Positions 3,127 to 34,867 of a stretch of 56,030 nucleotides of DNA are shown piece after piece. Source of the stretch: a virus. Every line of letters begins with the position of its first letter. Within the stretch, counting starts at the first letter, position 1. The notes under the pieces were generated by a model. That model was not told the DNA's origin. It did not search any database and saw nothing but the letters and a program-made list of their open reading frames with translations. The translations under genes and the position numbers were made by a program. The DNA lies in IMG/VR virus record IMGVR_UViG_3300035703_000118, positions 1 through 56,030 of that record; one strand, given 5' to 3'.

Positions 3127-4689
3127 CTACTCTTTTAGCGAGTTGGCAACTGCCTCAAACCGCTCCACCAATTCACGCATTTCATCTAAACGAAAACTTT
3201 GCAAAGCGTTCGACAGAATATCGGTTCGCATGTCATTAGCACCGACATCGTTACCGCCCGTGTTGTTGCCGCGCCCCTGATCGGGCGATGCGGCCTGGGT
3301 GTTTATGTCCGTGTCAACATCTTTACGCGGCAATGAAGCCGTGTTGTTCGGCAGCATGACGCCATCAGGAGCCTTGTCGTGCAGTGGTGCCACGTCGAGA
3401 ATGTCGAGGATGTTGGAGCGACCCTCGTCGGCGTGGAGCAGACCAGTGCCCCAGGCGATGATGGAGCGTTGCATTTCGCGGTACGGGTCAGGCTCTTGGA
3501 TGGGGTCAAACCACATCTTCGGAACCGGCATCGAGAAGGCGGAAAACACTTCGGCGTAAAACTCAACCCACTCATCTTGTCGGAAGCGCATGGCGTTGAT
3601 TGTGGACGGCGTAAGCGACTGCGCCGCACCATACGATGAGCCAGCCGCAGCAGAGTCCGACAGAAGCTCGATGTTGGGCACGTCCAGCGCCGCCGCCATC
3701 ATGGCCGCAACGGGGCGTGCTGAAGTGAAGTCGTAGCCTTTACCAGCAGTGTTGATCGCCTGGAGGTCTTGGCCGTCCGTCATCACCGCAGTCTGGCCGT
3801 GGCCGGTAGCGTTTTTCACCTTCGTGGATGTGGCGGTTGCCGCCTTGCCGCTCTTGGTGGTGATCTTGTACAGCATTTTCGACAGCGCCTCATTAACGAC
3901 GCGCCCGTAGCGCATAATCTCCGAATACGCTTCGTACCAGGGCAGTGCGGCAATCGAGTCTGGCAGGCCCATCGGCCAACCCGTTTGGCGGTTAAAACGC
4001 TTCACAACTGCCGTGACGTTAGCCGCAACCGGAACGCGCTCGTTGTTTACAGTGAGGCTCGTTTGGCGCGCACCCGTGAACTTATTGGTGTAGAACCACT
4101 CTTTACGCACCTTGCCAGATTCCGCAGCGGGCCACGTTCGCTGAATGGCCCAAATCTCGTCGGGGAAGTCGGGGTTAAACCGAATGTCGCTAACCTGCTC
4201 CAGCGGGAACGACCGCACTTCATCCAACGACGTGTAGCACAACGCAATCCGCACACCATCCGTGTACGCGCAACGCTCCATCTCAGAATGTGCCGACGCG
4301 CCAAACAGGTTGTCCTGGTTTACTTGCCGCTCATAGAAGCGCCGCAGACGGCTGGGAGCGCCAGCCTTCTTACTCGGCTCGACCCCTTCGATGTGGATGC
4401 CTTTCGCCCACACATACCCGCGCCGCAGGTTCACGCCACGCTGCATGAGGCTACCGCCCACCACGTAGGGGCGAATAGTCTCGGAAATGTCTTTCACTTC
4501 ATCGAGCGTCAGACCTTCAGAATGGTCATTGCCGAGCACGCCGGTAATCAGCGTCCAGCCGCGATCCTCGAATGCAAGAGAGCGCCGAACATTGTCAAGG
4601 CTTTCCCGCAAGTCTTCATTTTCGTTGCGCAAAGCCTCGAATTGTTCTTCGATTGCTTGGAAAGGCGTCGATTCAGGCATAAAACCCAT
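3127..4689 (-). CDS. portal protein
   Basis: A 520-residue protein directly after the large terminase, the standard place of the portal ring subunit through which DNA enters and leaves the head. The N-terminus is a predicted coiled coil (about 10-45). The middle contains mixed alpha/beta segments, and the C-terminal 60 residues are polar and Asn/Asp-rich, likely disordered. Size matches the 450-550 residue phage portal family. AGGTG seven bases before ATG 4689 supports the start. Function rests on order, size and overall pattern. Confidence 0.82.
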   Translation of the reverse strand: MGFMPESTPFQAIEEQFEALRNENEDLRESLDNVRRSLAFEDRGWTLITGVLGNDHSEGLTLDEVKDISETIRPYVVGGSLMQRGVNLRRGYVWAKGIHIEGVEPSKKAGAPSRLRRFYERQVNQDNLFGASAHSEMERCAYTDGVRIALCYTSLDEVRSFPLEQVSDIRFNPDFPDEIWAIQRTWPAAESGKVRKEWFYTNKFTGARQTSLTVNNERVPVAANVTAVVKRFNRQTGWPMGLPDSIAALPWYEAYSEIMRYGRVVNEALSKMLYKITTKSGKAATATSTKVKNATGHGQTAVMTDGQDLQAINTAGKGYDFTSARPVAAMMAAALDVPNIELLSDSAAAGSSYGAAQSLTPSTINAMRFRQDEWVEFYAEVFSAFSMPVPKMWFDPIQEPDPYREMQRSIIAWGTGLLHADEGRSNILDILDVAPLHDKAPDGVMLPNNTASLPRKDVDTDINTQAASPDQGRGNNTGGNDVGANDMRTDILSNALQSFRLDEMRELVERFEAVANSLKE

Positions 4690-30110: not shown

Positions 30111-30500
30111 ATGACCATCAACCCGAACAACTACACTGGCGTGAGCGCCACCATCGTCGGCTGGGCCGCGACAGACCCTCGACCGCCTGCATACGACAAG
30201 GATGGCACCAAGGGCGTCATCGAGGTGCCCATCGCCCACAATGAGGGCTACACCAAGGACGGCGAGTTCGTGAAGACTGGCACCACTTGGTACTCGGTGG
30301 TTGCCGCTGGCGATGCCGCGAACGAACTGAAGCGCATCAAGAAGGGCGACAAGATTCGCGTGGATGATGCAAAGCAGGAGGTTCGTGAGTTTGAGACTGG
30401 CGGCGAAAAGAAGCTCGGCATTACGCTGCGTTTCGGCAAGGTCACCGTTCTGGACGCCAAGGGCGGCGCGTCAGCCGCAGATGCAGACCCGGTGTTCTGA
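30111..30500 (+). CDS. single-strand DNA-binding protein-like
   Basis: 129 residues preceded by AAGGAG. Pattern of an OB-fold: ATIVGWAATDPRPP strand, TWYSVVAAGDAANELKRI (compare W-x-x-V-x-x-x-G-x-x-A in SSBs), KKGDKIRVDDAKQEVREF and GITLRFGKVTVLD. It ends in a short acidic tail ADADPVF, reminiscent of the SSB C-terminal tip. It would coat single-stranded DNA during replication and recombination. Its own promoter just upstream fits high expression. Confidence 0.75.
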   Translation: MTINPNNYTGVSATIVGWAATDPRPPAYDKDGTKGVIEVPIAHNEGYTKDGEFVKTGTTWYSVVAAGDAANELKRIKKGDKIRVDDAKQEVREFETGGEKKLGITLRFGKVTVLDAKGGASAADADPVF

Positions 30501-30715
30501 TGCCTGAGTTCCGCGTAACTCTTGCTCGCAAGATTGAGGGTAGTGAAAACCCCAATTCTGCCCAGTTTGACGAGTCGGATGCTTTCCTTATCTCCACTTT
30601 TCGGGCAAGCGACGAAAAGATTGCTGGGGTAAAGGCCCTCGACCATTTCCGAGACACCTTTGACTGGCATCCCGACTGGGTTGTCGCTGGCGTTGAGATG
30701 GTTGACGACGATTAG
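30500..30715 (+). CDS. hypothetical protein after SSB, 71 aa
   Basis: ATG 30500 overlaps the SSB stop. Small alpha/beta protein (PEFRVTLARKIEGSENPNSA, then helix, then VVAGVEMVDDD). Last gene before the structured non-coding gap. Confidence 0.65.
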   Translation: MPEFRVTLARKIEGSENPNSAQFDESDAFLISTFRASDEKIAGVKALDHFRDTFDWHPDWVVAGVEMVDDD

Positions 30716-30727
30716 TTTGTGGAGTTG

Positions 30728-30757
30728 CCCGCCATTTTCAGGGGTGGAGGTGGCGGG
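30728..30757. terminator. perfect 7-bp hairpin after the SSB operon
   Basis: CCCGCCA (30728-30734) pairs with TGGCGGG (30751-30757) across 16 bases, 13 bases after the 30715 stop. It could terminate or protect the SSB transcript; no T-run is present. Confidence 0.45.
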
Positions 30758-31086
30758 ACACAATTTCATGGGGGTAGCGGTTTCTGGAATACGGAATGCG
30801 CGCCAATTCCGAGAAGTCCATCTTGGTCGAGCCATCGGTGAACGGGACTGACTGTAATCGTGTCAGGCGAAACCGGAGGAAAAGGACAAAAGCATCTGGC
30901 CCGGATGCAGTGACCGTTAATTCTAGATGAGTACGGCAACCCGTTGCGAAGACGGGAGGGCACCTAACTTCATAAGAGTCGCTGGATAACCGGGAACGCC
31001 AGCGGTCAGTGCAAGTGCAAGCCACCCGGCGCATTTATGCACGCACGAAAGGAAGCCCATCCTGCTTAGCGGCAAAACGGGCACAA

Positions 31087-31190
31087 CCCCCACCACTGGT
31101 AGGCAGCGGTTCAAGCCCGCAACGCTTCGGTTGGTCTAGAAGGGCCGAAAGCCAATGGCGACTGTTGAGGTTCAAATCCTCAGTGGGGGA
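31087..31190 (+). ncRNA. tRNA-like acceptor and T-arm structure
   Basis: CCCCCAC (31087-31093) pairs perfectly with GTGGGGG (31183-31189). Directly inside lies a standard T-arm: TGAGG, loop TTCAAAT, CCTCA (31166-31182). A second T-arm-like element is at 31106-31120. The interior (72 bases) does not fold into a normal D-arm and anticodon arm, there is no CCA, and the length is 104 bases, so it is not called a functional tRNA. Confidence 0.4.
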
Positions 31191-31377
31191 CGATATGACA
31201 TACACAACCGACGTGAAGATGGGGCGCTAGACTGTAAACTCTCTCAACTGGAAGGCGGGCAGAAACATTAAGCACCTTGACCAGCGGGAGTTTCTGACAA
31301 AACTGTTCAGCGGCCTAGACTTCGGCTACGTTCAACTTGTCACCAGCCCCACCACTGGGCCGGATGTAAAGTTCAAC

Positions 31378-33477
31378 ATGCCGCGCACCTACGACCTGTT
31401 CACGGGTTTCGGTGACTTTTTAGAAGACGCTAAGCGGCTTTCCGTGGGTGACTTGTGTTTCGCGGTTGCAGCATACGGTCAAGAATACCGGCGCAAGAAT
31501 GACCCCGAAGCGAAGACCCGCGTCGTGTATGCCGATGTGGACGGCCTTGACCCTAAAGATTTCCGGGTAGCACCCACATTCCTTGTGTCGTCTTCCCCCG
31601 GACACTGGCACGCTTACTGGTTGCTGGAAGATTTCGTGCTCAACGATGAGGCCGCAGAAATCTCCACCGCCATTGCCAAGGCGCACGGCTTGGATGCTTC
31701 AAGCGGTATTGCCACCAAACTGCTGCGGGTGCCGGGGAGCGTGAACACTAAGTATGCCCCTGCGCATACAGTTCAGGCGTACCAGAATGTTGAAACGCTC
31801 TACACGCTGGAGCGACTGGCGTCCTTCTATCCGCTGGGCGCTGTCGAGGCTTACGATTCGGTCGAGTTGCAAGCGCCGGTTGAATGGCCCAACTATTTTG
31901 ATGCGCTCGCAGAAATCCCTGCCGACAATCGCATCCAAATGCTCATGGAGTGGGACAAGCGTACCGCCGATGACCCAGAGAAACGTAGCGAGCACCGCTT
32001 TGAGTTGATCCGGTTGCTCATGGAGAAGACGCACCTCACCCCTGAGCAGATCGCTGTCGTTGTTTGGCACGCGCCAGTCTCCGACCATTTCCGTGAGCAA
32101 GACCGGCCCATTGAGCATCTGTATAAGTTTGATGTGGCGAAAGCTCTCGGCAAGCAGGTGGAGCCGACCGAGTTGGAGCGGTACGAGCCTGAAGAGGCCG
32201 TCACTGATGTGCAGTTCATCACCGCCGAAGAGATGATTGCCGTCTACGAAACCCCCGGCTTTTTAGACAAGTGGCGTGAAATCAACTACGCCAACCTGCA
32301 TCCGAAAACGCCCGACCAGTACGTGCGGATCAACGGCTACGCGCTGCTGAGTGCGGCTCTGGGTAACAAGGTTACGGTGATGCCTCCAGGCACGTCGCGC
32401 GCTGTGTTCTGCAACTTGTACGTGCTCAACGTCGGGCAAACCACATCGGGTAAATCTGAGGCCCTGTTTATTCTGAAGCGGTTTATCAAGGCTTATAGCG
32501 AGAAGGTGGGCTATGAACTGTTTGTCGGCTCGTCAGCCACGTCGGAAGGTCTTATCAAGGCCCTGAAGGGCTACGACAAGCGCACGGCTCTGCTCATCAC
32601 CGAAGAAGTGTCGGGCAAGTTCCGCTCGTGGGCGAACAGTGCAAACATGGCGCACGCTCGTGAGACTGAGCTTGAATTGTACGACAACTATTTGCCGAAA
32701 AACTTGCGTGCCGGTGATGGTGCTGGCTCGGTGGAGAACGTTCACTTGTCGTTTTCGCAGTACATGATGGGTGTGGATTCAGAAGTGGAAGGCTTGCTTG
32801 ATCGCGGCTTTCTACGTTCCGGCTACCTGCCGCGTGTTCTCGTGGTGAAAGGTGAGCGCAGCATCTTTGACGCCTCCGAGCAGTTGGAGATTCCGCAGGG
32901 TGACCCCGACAAAACGCAAGACGTTGACCCGATTCCCGGCATTTGGGCTGAATCTTTTGCCGAGTCGATTCGCCGCAACAGTCGTCACGAGCAGGGCCGC
33001 TTTGGCTACATGGTGATGCAGTTTGAGGATGATGCCTGGTCGCGCTTTTTGCAGTTCCGTGCGAGCCTGCTGAAGTTTGCGGAATCCCACGAAGACCCGG
33101 ATGTGGTGCGTCCGATGGCGATTCGTTTTGCAATCAGTGCCCAGAAGATGATGGCGTTGCTTGCTTATGAGCGCGCTGCGGGTGTTGTGCAGATGATTGA
33201 CGTTTTGCGCGTGCTGGCCGACTGCGAAGATTTCTGGGGCTGGAGTATGGACTTAGTGCAGGGCGTGTCCGATTCGGCGTTTGCTCGGATGCAGGATGAG
33301 GTGCTAACGTGGCTGATTGCCCGCAACCGTAAGGCGCGTCTGGTGGACTTCCACACCCGCTACGCCTCGTGGACATTGAAAGAACGTAGTGATGTGCTCG
33401 AAAGTCTGATGGCTCGTGGCGTTGCTGCGGTTAGGACTAGCGATAAAGGATCGAAACACTTGGAGATGGCAGAATGA
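31378..33477 (+). CDS. primase-helicase (RepB/AEP-like primase with DUF3987-like ATPase)
   Basis: 699 residues from the first ATG. The N-terminal part looks like an archaeo-eukaryotic/RepB-type primase: VVYADVDGLD with paired acidic residues, SSSPGHWHAYWLLE, and LLRVPGSVNTKY. The C-terminal ATPase has Walker A GQTTSGKSEA (about 352-361) and a Walker B-like RTALLITEEVSG. It should synthesise primers and unwind DNA at the phage origin. The same frame stays protein-like upstream (RNIKHLDQREFLTKLFSGLD) back to an in-frame TAG at 31228, with no ATG, GTG or TTG in between, so the true N-terminus is probably longer and the real start is unresolved (see findings). Confidence 0.8.
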   Translation: MPRTYDLFTGFGDFLEDAKRLSVGDLCFAVAAYGQEYRRKNDPEAKTRVVYADVDGLDPKDFRVAPTFLVSSSPGHWHAYWLLEDFVLNDEAAEISTAIAKAHGLDASSGIATKLLRVPGSVNTKYAPAHTVQAYQNVETLYTLERLASFYPLGAVEAYDSVELQAPVEWPNYFDALAEIPADNRIQMLMEWDKRTADDPEKRSEHRFELIRLLMEKTHLTPEQIAVVVWHAPVSDHFREQDRPIEHLYKFDVAKALGKQVEPTELERYEPEEAVTDVQFITAEEMIAVYETPGFLDKWREINYANLHPKTPDQYVRINGYALLSAALGNKVTVMPPGTSRAVFCNLYVLNVGQTTSGKSEALFILKRFIKAYSEKVGYELFVGSSATSEGLIKALKGYDKRTALLITEEVSGKFRSWANSANMAHARETELELYDNYLPKNLRAGDGAGSVENVHLSFSQYMMGVDSEVEGLLDRGFLRSGYLPRVLVVKGERSIFDASEQLEIPQGDPDKTQDVDPIPGIWAESFAESIRRNSRHEQGRFGYMVMQFEDDAWSRFLQFRASLLKFAESHEDPDVVRPMAIRFAISAQKMMALLAYERAAGVVQMIDVLRVLADCEDFWGWSMDLVQGVSDSAFARMQDEVLTWLIARNRKARLVDFHTRYASWTLKERSDVLESLMARGVAAVRTSDKGSKHLEMAE

Positions 33478-34109
33478 GTAGCCCCAAGGACATTTATCAC
33501 ATTGAACCAATAGAGTCAAAGTTCGCCCAGGCCCTTGTGGTAGAGAATCATTACCTGCACCGCCGCGCTCAGTGCATGTTTGCTTTTGGGCTATTCGAGG
33601 GTGAAGAACTTATCGGTTGCGTCATCTGGGGTAAGCCCGCATCTCCCTGGCCCTGTCGCGGCATCTGTGGCCCGGAAGAAGCCGATCACGTTTTGGAGTT
33701 GACCCGCCTCTGGATTGATGACAAGTCTGTAAAGAACGCCGAGTCTTTTTTGATCGCATCGAGCATCAAGATGCTACCGGAAAAGTATGACATTTTGCTT
33801 TCCTATGCCGAGATTCAGCAGGGCCACGTTGGCGTTGTTTACCAAGCAACCAACTGGCTTTTTACCGGCATGTCTGACAAAAACCTCGAATGGTGGGTTG
33901 ATGGCAAGCCACTGAAGCACTCTCGTCACGCTTTTGACGAACTGGGTGGCGTCGCTGAGGCCAAGAAGCATTATGGTTCGCGCATGGAAAAGATGGAGCG
34001 ACCCCGGAAGAATCGCTACATCATGTTTCGAGGGTCAAAGAAGAGGAAGAAGGAACTTATGTCAAAGTTGCGCTACAAGCCAATGCCGTACCCCAAGGCC
34101 GAGCAGTGA
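33474..34109 (+). CDS. Mom-like DNA modification protein
   Basis: 211 residues, overlapping the primase gene by 4 bases. The family of phage Mu Mom is suggested by ALVVENHYLHRR near the N-terminus, the GNAT-like core (FGLFEGEELIGCVIWGKPA), LELTRLWIDDK, and YDILLSYAEIQQGHVGVVYQ. Mom converts adenine in DNA to a carbamoylmethyl derivative and protects phage DNA from host restriction. The tail is very basic (RGSKKRKKELMSKLRYK), suited to DNA binding. The next gene, overlapping by 4 bases, is an adenine methylase. Identification is by motif pattern. Confidence 0.75.
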   Translation: MSSPKDIYHIEPIESKFAQALVVENHYLHRRAQCMFAFGLFEGEELIGCVIWGKPASPWPCRGICGPEEADHVLELTRLWIDDKSVKNAESFLIASSIKMLPEKYDILLSYAEIQQGHVGVVYQATNWLFTGMSDKNLEWWVDGKPLKHSRHAFDELGGVAEAKKHYGSRMEKMERPRKNRYIMFRGSKKRKKELMSKLRYKPMPYPKAEQ

Positions 34110-34867
34110 AACCACCGTTTCCCTACTATGGGGGCAAGCAGAGAATCGCAGAGAAGATCATCGAGACCTTTCCGGCGCACGGGCACTACATTGAGCCTTT
34201 CGCTGGCGGGCTGAGCGTGCTCTTGGCTAAAGAGCCGAGCAAGCACGAGACCGTCAACGACCTCGACAAGTCCCTGGTGACTTTCTGGCGCGTGTTACGA
34301 GAGCGGCCCGAAGAACTTTACAATGCGTGCCTGCTGACGCCGTGGTCGCGTTCAGAGCAAAAGACTTCTACCGACCTTGATGTGCCCGATGAACTGGAAG
34401 TTGCTCGCAGGGTTTTTGTGGCGCTGACCCAAGGGCGCGGTGCTCGGCTGAGCAATACGGGTTGGCGCTTTGTGTCCGATCCGAAGTCACCCACACCCAT
34501 GTCCCGCTACCGGGACGGCTATGTTTCGCGCCTTATGCCCGTTGCCGAGCGGTTGCATTCTGTCACCCTGGAGTGCCGTGATGCGCTTGATGTTATCAAG
34601 ACTTACGGGCGAAAGGGCGCGCTGCTGTACGTTGACCCGCCCTACCTTGCCGAGACTCGCTCTGGGACTGGCTACGGGGTCGAGATGGAAGATGTAGATT
34701 CCCACCGCGGGCTTGCCGAAGTTTTGCGTGCCACTGAAGCCAGCGTCTGCTTGAGTGGGTATGACTCGCCACTGTACGCGGAACTGTACCCCGGCTGGAA
34801 TCGGCTGGAAATCAAAGCTCGCGCCAACTCGGGTAGTCGAACCGAAGTGTTGTGGATGAACTACTGA
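34106..34867 (+). CDS. D12-class (Dam-like) adenine-N6 DNA methylase
   Basis: 253 residues with a GTG start. The AdoMet-binding motif PPFPYYGGKQR lies at 2-12 and the catalytic motif IV DPPY at about 175-178 in LLYVDPPYLAE; an intermediate HYIEPFAGGLSV segment is also typical. It transfers a methyl group to adenine N6, probably masking restriction sites. Coupled to the Mom-like gene, so both modifications may act together on phage DNA. Size matches the Dam family (250-280). Confidence 0.88.
   Translation: MKPPFPYYGGKQRIAEKIIETFPAHGHYIEPFAGGLSVLLAKEPSKHETVNDLDKSLVTFWRVLRERPEELYNACLLTPWSRSEQKTSTDLDVPDELEVARRVFVALTQGRGARLSNTGWRFVSDPKSPTPMSRYRDGYVSRLMPVAERLHSVTLECRDALDVIKTYGRKGALLYVDPPYLAETRSGTGYGVEMEDVDSHRGLAEVLRATEASVCLSGYDSPLYAELYPGWNRLEIKARANSGSRTEVLWMNY

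Follow-up and report, generated by a model that had tools for sequence, protein, structure and literature searches.

The region upstream of the primase-helicase gene in the IMG/VR virus record IMGVR_UViG_3300035703_000118 contains a tRNA-like acceptor stem and T-arm, an imitation of one half of a tRNA, and a covarying tRNA-like unit occupies the same position, between the genes for the single-stranded DNA-binding protein (ssb) and the primase, in related phages. Our reading is that the region holds a divergent tRNA-like element, composed of a putative pseudoknot and the acceptor/T-arm unit, which precedes a primase gene starting with ATT, recurs at the ssb-primase junction and serves in RNA processing, in masking of the primase ribosome binding site (RBS), or in both; taken as a whole, we give this reading about even chances. 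The DNA analysed (the window) comprises 56,030 nt, i.e., positions 1 to 56,030 of the record, and the gap in question is 662 bases long, extending from the stop codon of a 71-aa open reading frame (ORF) to the ATG at 31378. The following features were distinguished in and around it.

30111-30500, + strand: SSB gene, its product sharing 54% identity with the SSB of Microbacterium phages BarnCat and Cassita; gene order as in Pseudanabaena phage Pan2
30500-30715, + strand: 71-aa ORF (taken from the ORF list) with stop codon TAG at 30713-30715; it has a positional counterpart in Pan2 and is the last gene before the RNA gap
30728-30757, + strand: stable hairpin CCCGCC..CAGGGGTGGA..GGCGGG directly 3' of the stop codon (z -4.25)
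31050-31082, + strand: putative H-type pseudoknot AGGA-A-GCCC-A-TCCT-(15 nt)-GGGC, found by scan (4% of shuffles were as good)
31083-31086, + strand: A-rich linker ACAA from the pseudoknot to the acceptor strand (AACAA, ATAA, CAA or ACA in relatives)
31087-31093, + strand: acceptor 5' strand CCCCCAC, 7/7 Watson-Crick pairs with 31183-31189
31094-31100, + strand: D-loop-like motif CACTGGT, containing GG and lacking a D stem, aligned with (A)CTGG, (A)ATGG or ACGG of 13 relatives
31100-31165, + strand: variable arm, in which GCCCGC (31115-31120) and CTTC (31125-31128) can pair with the primase RBS (31251-31260)
31166-31182, + strand: T-arm TGAGG-TTCAAAT-CCTCA (5/5 pairs), the sole 5-bp T-arm on both strands of the window
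31183-31193, + strand: acceptor 3' strand GTGGGGG, followed by ACGA (relatives end in ACGA or ACAA)
31195-31260, + strand: block conserved with Pan2 (local score 53, shuffle maximum 36.5), containing the -10-like TAGACT at 31228-31233
31252-31258, + strand: Shine-Dalgarno (SD)-like AAGGCGG, seen directly in the sequence (AAGGTGG in Pan2)
31267-33477, + strand: primase-helicase with the proposed start codon ATT at 31267 (PHROG 10514 DNA primase; Pfam DUF3987 and RepB_primase)

The acceptor and T-arm that the preliminary description of this DNA had noticed at the 3' end of the region are real: GTGGGGG (31183-31189) lies directly 3' of the T-arm and pairs at all seven positions with CCCCCAC. A strict T-arm-plus-acceptor search found this unit once in 56 kb, both strands included, and in dinucleotide shuffles of the gap any such unit appeared in 6 of 3000 cases and a perfect 7-bp acceptor in none of the 3000. 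Measured against a canonical tRNA, the unit has the 7-bp acceptor stem and a T-arm with a TTCRANY loop, while its D-arm and anticodon arm are not canonical. ARAGORN (tRNA/tmRNA) detected 0 genes in the gap at normal thresholds; runs allowing introns, relaxed thresholds or tmRNA mode produced mutually inconsistent fragments, and these only when loosened. Rfam cmscan of the gap, with E up to 10, returned chance matches to miRNA, lncRNA and plastid-leader families and no tRNA, tmRNA or intron family, so that the covariance-model search for a group I intron, tRNA or tmRNA suggested earlier ended without a match. The tRNA-like end is neither an intron nor a tmRNA but a distinct upstream element. 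A permuted tRNA was rejected on inspection (the matching half is absent).

The 0.5-kb stem-rich region described around this end holds in a weaker form than claimed, the 515 nt being modestly more stable than shuffles (z -1.86). The hairpin at 30728-30757 is the sole strongly stable local structure in the gap, and the segment 30722-30757, with its CAGGGGTGGA core, is common to the window and Pan2 (L001:3426-3461; local score 40 vs. a shuffle maximum of 36.5). DNA pattern searches with the TAGACTGTA block and with this 5' hairpin gave no useful relatives.

Related loci were obtained with an alignment of 12 primases, which yielded 176 relatives in IMG/VR, of which 80 were kept. When one or two primases served as queries against IMG/VR, and in a search of a bacterial and archaeal genome set, no relative was confirmed; a plasmid search gave one partial primase match only. 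Some members of this phage group carry a real tRNA in place of the element. In Pan2, the nearest relative (69-71% identity over the primase), the gap contains a canonical tRNA-Asn. Just upstream of the primase there is a tRNA-Leu(CAA) in Microbacterium phages BarnCat and Cassita and Curtobacterium phage Yappy, four tRNAs (Leu, Pro, Asn and Gln) in Stenotrophomonas phage Jojan60, and two tRNA annotations each in Arthrobacter phages Anansi and Molivia; a tRNA-Leu occupies the same spot in L043, L046 and L048. A T-arm, perfect in L022-L042 and L044, is found about 15-140 nt upstream of the primase in L022-L042, L044 and L046; tRNA prediction is absent there in L022-L042 and L044, and L046 carries its T-arm in addition to the tRNA-Leu.

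The layout shared by these relatives is, from 5' to 3': (i) the stop codon on the ssb side, (ii) an H-type pseudoknot, (iii) an A-rich linker, (iv) the acceptor strand, (v) an (A)CTGG-type motif, (vi) a hairpin with a pyrimidine-rich loop, (vii) the T-arm, (viii) the second acceptor strand, (ix) ACGA or ACAA, (x) the RBS and (xi) the primase. The unit is 64-107 nt long in the window and its freshwater relatives. In an alignment of 13 sequences, from which the window was left out, compensatory changes occur in 11 of the 15 pairs of the tRNA-like unit, doubly changed cells number 34 as against 10 in shuffles, and 88% of the cells are paired, compared with 69% in shuffles and 41-55% with the partners slid; the T-stem is 100% paired, and four of its five pairs covary. 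The pseudoknot of the relatives covaries as well: by a scripted count of pairing cells, 50 of 52 are paired in stem S1 and 64 of 65 in S2, with double changes (0 of 2000 shuffles), and RNAalifold agrees with this structure. In Pan2, a pseudoknot and a mini tRNA-like unit behind the tRNA-Asn were sought by eye, and the scan did not confirm the pseudoknot.

The unit is concentrated at this junction. A strict form lies within 650 nt upstream of the primase in 19 of 56 non-redundant primase loci (20 of 56 when tRNA predictions are included), against a background of one strict unit in 909 kb taken from elsewhere in these loci. Canonical tRNAs are part of the count, and units whose acceptor has a mismatch, e.g., L029, L031 and L034, escape it. 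The remaining 36 loci lack a strict unit, and many of them belong to distant clades. Rfam searches with the tRNA-like units of sixteen related loci matched ordinary tRNAs only.

The window unit occupies the coding strand of the ssb-primase interval, as in the relatives, and its parts follow in the order AGGA-A-GCCC-A-TCCT-...-GGGC, ACAA, CCCCCAC, CACTGGT, arm, T-arm, GTGGGGG and ACGA. Its putative pseudoknot has the order and position of the covarying pseudoknots, with stems that differ in sequence; by itself it is weak evidence of membership, 4% of shuffles being equally good. The best match in the window to a covariance model built without the window sequence is the unit itself (31089-31193; 20.4 bits; E 0.05 in 716 kb and 5.6e-5 in the gap). 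With the same model true tRNAs score 15-29 bits, a range that the window unit does not exceed, so the score marks the unit as tRNA-like rather than as a member of this particular family. Because the model cannot separate the unit from true tRNAs, family membership rests on layout and position, by which the window unit is probably a divergent member or copy of the covarying tRNA-like element of primase leaders.

The primase frame was confirmed to be open from 31231, behind an in-frame TAG at 31228-31230, with no ATG, GTG or TTG between 31231 and 31378; that TAG is preceded, in frame, by the ATGs at 31195 and 31219. Upstream of 31378 the protein-like stretch is indeed coding, the window and Pan2 sharing the pattern QREFLT..FSG.D.G...LV. 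The shared N-terminus begins upstream of the ATG at 31378 (window NIKHLDQREFLTKLFSGLD, Pan2 IISNISQREFLTTIFSGID), and in the majority of more distant primases the start lies a few residues N-terminal to the corresponding aromatic position, part of an (E/D)F motif. A comparison of homologous N-termini had been proposed as a check on the start, and since the homology to Pan2 runs back to about 31267, past 31378, the latter codon is not the start. Of the options raised earlier, a non-standard start at ATT 31267 is the one supported by this comparison: AAGGCGG precedes the codon by 8 nt, and the homologous codon of Pan2 is ATC (L001:3884), five codons before the shared QREF and 5 nt after AAGGTGG. 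ATT 31267, a very rare start codon, is the best candidate for the primase start, and initiation from it is what we infer from the comparison. The annotated GTG start of the Pan2 primase (L001:3875, Pan2_39) overlaps its own SD. This annotation is probably wrong, and ATC 3884 appears to fit better.

Weak start codons recur in these primases, as TTG is the likely start in L022, L024, L036 and L044 and is annotated in Yappy. The infC gene starts with ATT in Escherichia coli and with ATC in Streptomyces, the annotated GTG of Streptomyces sigR has been doubted, partly for its bad position, and the non-canonical starts of infC and sigR (GTC) are repressed by IF3 (PMC5472188). The phage primases resemble these genes in the proposed weak ATT/ATC start behind an SD and, like sigR, in a badly placed annotated GTG; they differ in being phage replication genes, with a start codon predicted by sequence comparison. 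They offer a comparative example of ATT/ATC initiation in phages, a setting in which starts are misplaced by gene callers.

Complementarity between the arm and the primase RBS is most evident in L031-type loci, in which the loop CUUCUUCUCC and GGAGAAGAAG at the RBS are perfect complements. When nine non-redundant loci are taken together, the pairing of each arm with its own RBS exceeds swapped pairing (permutation p 0.007), most clearly in L031, L036 and L040; it is weak in L029, L034 and L038. The window arm could form a duplex of -22 to -24.3 kcal/mol with the primase RBS, a value reached by 19% of other window stretches and therefore not significant. With its similarity to the 3' end of 16S rRNA, the arm would suit SDs generally.

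We propose that in transcripts reading through from the ssb side the tRNA-like fold would be recognised by tRNA-processing enzymes, and that RNase P would cut 5' of the acceptor strand, separating the ssb and primase messages. Where the unit adjoins the RBS, as it does in one clade, the pyrimidine-rich arm may also mask the primase SD, and the element and the weak start codon together would keep primase output low or timed. Processing and masking both fit and may coexist. Processing fits because the acceptor and T-arm alone are common to all forms, whose middle part varies from that of 64-nt units to that of full tRNAs, and because real tRNAs substitute for the element; the acceptor-T helix is a minimal substrate of bacterial RNase P.

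Two further routes to the primase start had been considered in the preliminary description. Amber read-through at TAG 31228, from the ATG at 31195 or 31219, would make use of a frame that is continuous except for the TAG. However, in Pan2 the aligned TAG of the conserved TAGACTGTA lies in another frame and the primase frame is closed by an in-frame TGA at 3869, the window and Pan2 differ in their alignment by a 1-nt indel immediately 3' of the TAG, and the primases of relatives start further downstream; read-through has a negligible probability. The whole block 31195-31260 is not coding, since its alignment with Pan2 contains 1- and 2-base indels, and the supposed amber codon is the first half of the TAGACT hexamer, which is better read as a -10-like hexamer with a possible promoter role. 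A sigma-70 scan found no full promoter at 31228-31233. A promoter at 31228, if real, would yield primase transcripts without the element, which counts against the explanation that we prefer. The stem-rich 0.5-kb gap and the missing usual start codon would also suit a self-splicing intron joining a distant start codon to the primase, but group I and II covariance models found no match in the gap in the Rfam cmscan, even at E 10, homologous primases need no additional exon (distant ones have no extra N-terminal exon), and the Pan2 gap contains an intact tRNA. We regard splicing as extremely improbable.

The remaining alternatives concern the nature of the tRNA-like unit. It may be a decayed or unusual tRNA gene, e.g., a tRNA-Leu (CAA), in a tRNA hotspot and without a role for the primase, as suggested by the real tRNAs in the same gap of Pan2, BarnCat, Yappy, Jojan60, L043 and L048, by a CAA-like loop seen on inspection at window 31110-31116 (TTCAAGC) and by the long variable arms, typical of class II tRNAs. 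The non-canonical D-arm and anticodon arm, with ARAGORN fragments appearing only at loosened thresholds, speak against it, as do the relatives, which keep the unit with compensatory changes and without a tRNA prediction, a pattern that a decaying gene would not show; we consider this origin unlikely. The unit could also be a trans-acting small RNA, a tRNA mimic or decoy cut from the ssb-primase transcript and linked to the primase through shared transcription only. A tRNA-like end is suited to excision by RNases P and Z, and the unit of BarnCat, Yappy, L046 and the window is set apart from the primase RBS by either a tRNA or some 60-340 nt; in the L031-type clade, by contrast, the unit lies directly at the primase start with its arm complementary to the RBS, and a small RNA seems to us a rather poor prospect. 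The cores of attP sites commonly correspond to the 3' half of tRNA genes, and the acceptor/T-arm might be such a site, copied from a host tRNA 3' end. However, the unit includes a 5' acceptor strand of its own, its stems covary from phage to phage, it adjoins ssb and primase, and no integrase was found among those window proteins that were scanned (part of the set), which makes an attP origin very improbable.

The leader element that we favour resembles tRNA-like structures and the tRNA-like domain of tmRNA in its acceptor/T-arm helix, its TTCRANY loop, its GG-containing D-loop-like motif without a D-stem and its nearby pseudoknot; unlike tmRNA, it has no tag ORF and no ARAGORN or Rfam tmRNA match, and it stands just upstream of a phage primase. 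Mitochondrial tRNA punctuation and the phage C4 RNA are known cases of tRNA punctuation and of RNase P substrates in phage mRNAs. The element is similar to these in being a minimal acceptor-T helix between cistrons that real tRNAs can replace, and differs in its 3' tail (ACGA instead of RCCA), in the RBS-complementary arm of one clade and in that its cleavage is predicted. Phage tRNA genes are usually read as codon-supply genes, and here tRNAs and covarying tRNA-like RNAs invisible to ARAGORN share one fixed place before a replication primase. Given this shared place and the covariation, it becomes testable whether phages employ the tRNA shape to switch the processing or translation of replication genes.

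STAXI is a tandem pseudoknot near ssb genes with UUCG loops (PMC2864571). It resembles the present case in being a pseudoknot near genes for single-stranded DNA-binding proteins, whereas the pseudoknot here is a single H-type one with no Rfam match. The yjdF riboswitch has a tRNA-like fold and regulates translation (PMC9142559). It shares with the element a tRNA-like shape in a translational leader; the element differs in sequence, in its phage primase context, in having no known ligand and in having no Rfam match. STAXI and the tRNA-like yjdF riboswitch come closest to the present case and differ from it in layout and gene context. By our searches the RNA family is absent from Rfam 15, and the open-licence literature yielded no account of a phage primase with a tRNA-like leader. 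Dozens of distantly related phages have either an RNA of this sort or a true tRNA at this site, which points to an undescribed means of controlling a replication gene. The wider proposal, that this is a new class of phage leader RNA in which an H-type pseudoknot and a tRNA-like domain control the primase through a cut by the host's tRNA-processing enzymes, with an arm mimicking the 16S rRNA anti-SD and masking the RBS where the unit abuts it, and in which real tRNAs and copies interchange in evolution, is offered tentatively, as a possibility that falls short of even chances.

Very short tRNA-like units (about 45-55 nt) were observed in the same gap of other clades (L045 and L059, each with its T-arm at 3163). 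They consist of an acceptor, one D-like hairpin and a T-arm, without an anticodon arm, and similar T-arms occur in L057 and L074. In Jojan60, a T-arm and an acceptor ending in ACCA (L012:2272-2350) lie between the annotated tRNAs and the primase; this ARAGORN-negative unit is partly under an annotated hypothetical CDS.

An H-type pseudoknot of the form (S1)GG-GTGCG-N-(S1')..AACGCACA was recognised in at least 120 viral stretches, mostly without a tRNA-like unit (L102-L180 from IMG/VR, e.g., L103, L110, L125 and L165, and also L022-L046). S1 has at least 4 bp in 75 of 83 inspected matches, and most matches have a stop codon a few nucleotides upstream and a small ORF a short distance downstream, with up to three copies per locus. 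Rfam searches of ten loci with this pseudoknot, and a search of bacterial and archaeal hosts with one exact 25-mer of the wider motif, gave no match. The wider pseudoknot has the appearance of a separate, so far undescribed leader motif of phages.

Directly after the window primase, a gene at 33474-34109 encodes a Mom-family DNA modification protein (Pfam Mom, E 5.7e-42), downstream of which a D12-type DNA methyltransferase is encoded at 34106-34867.
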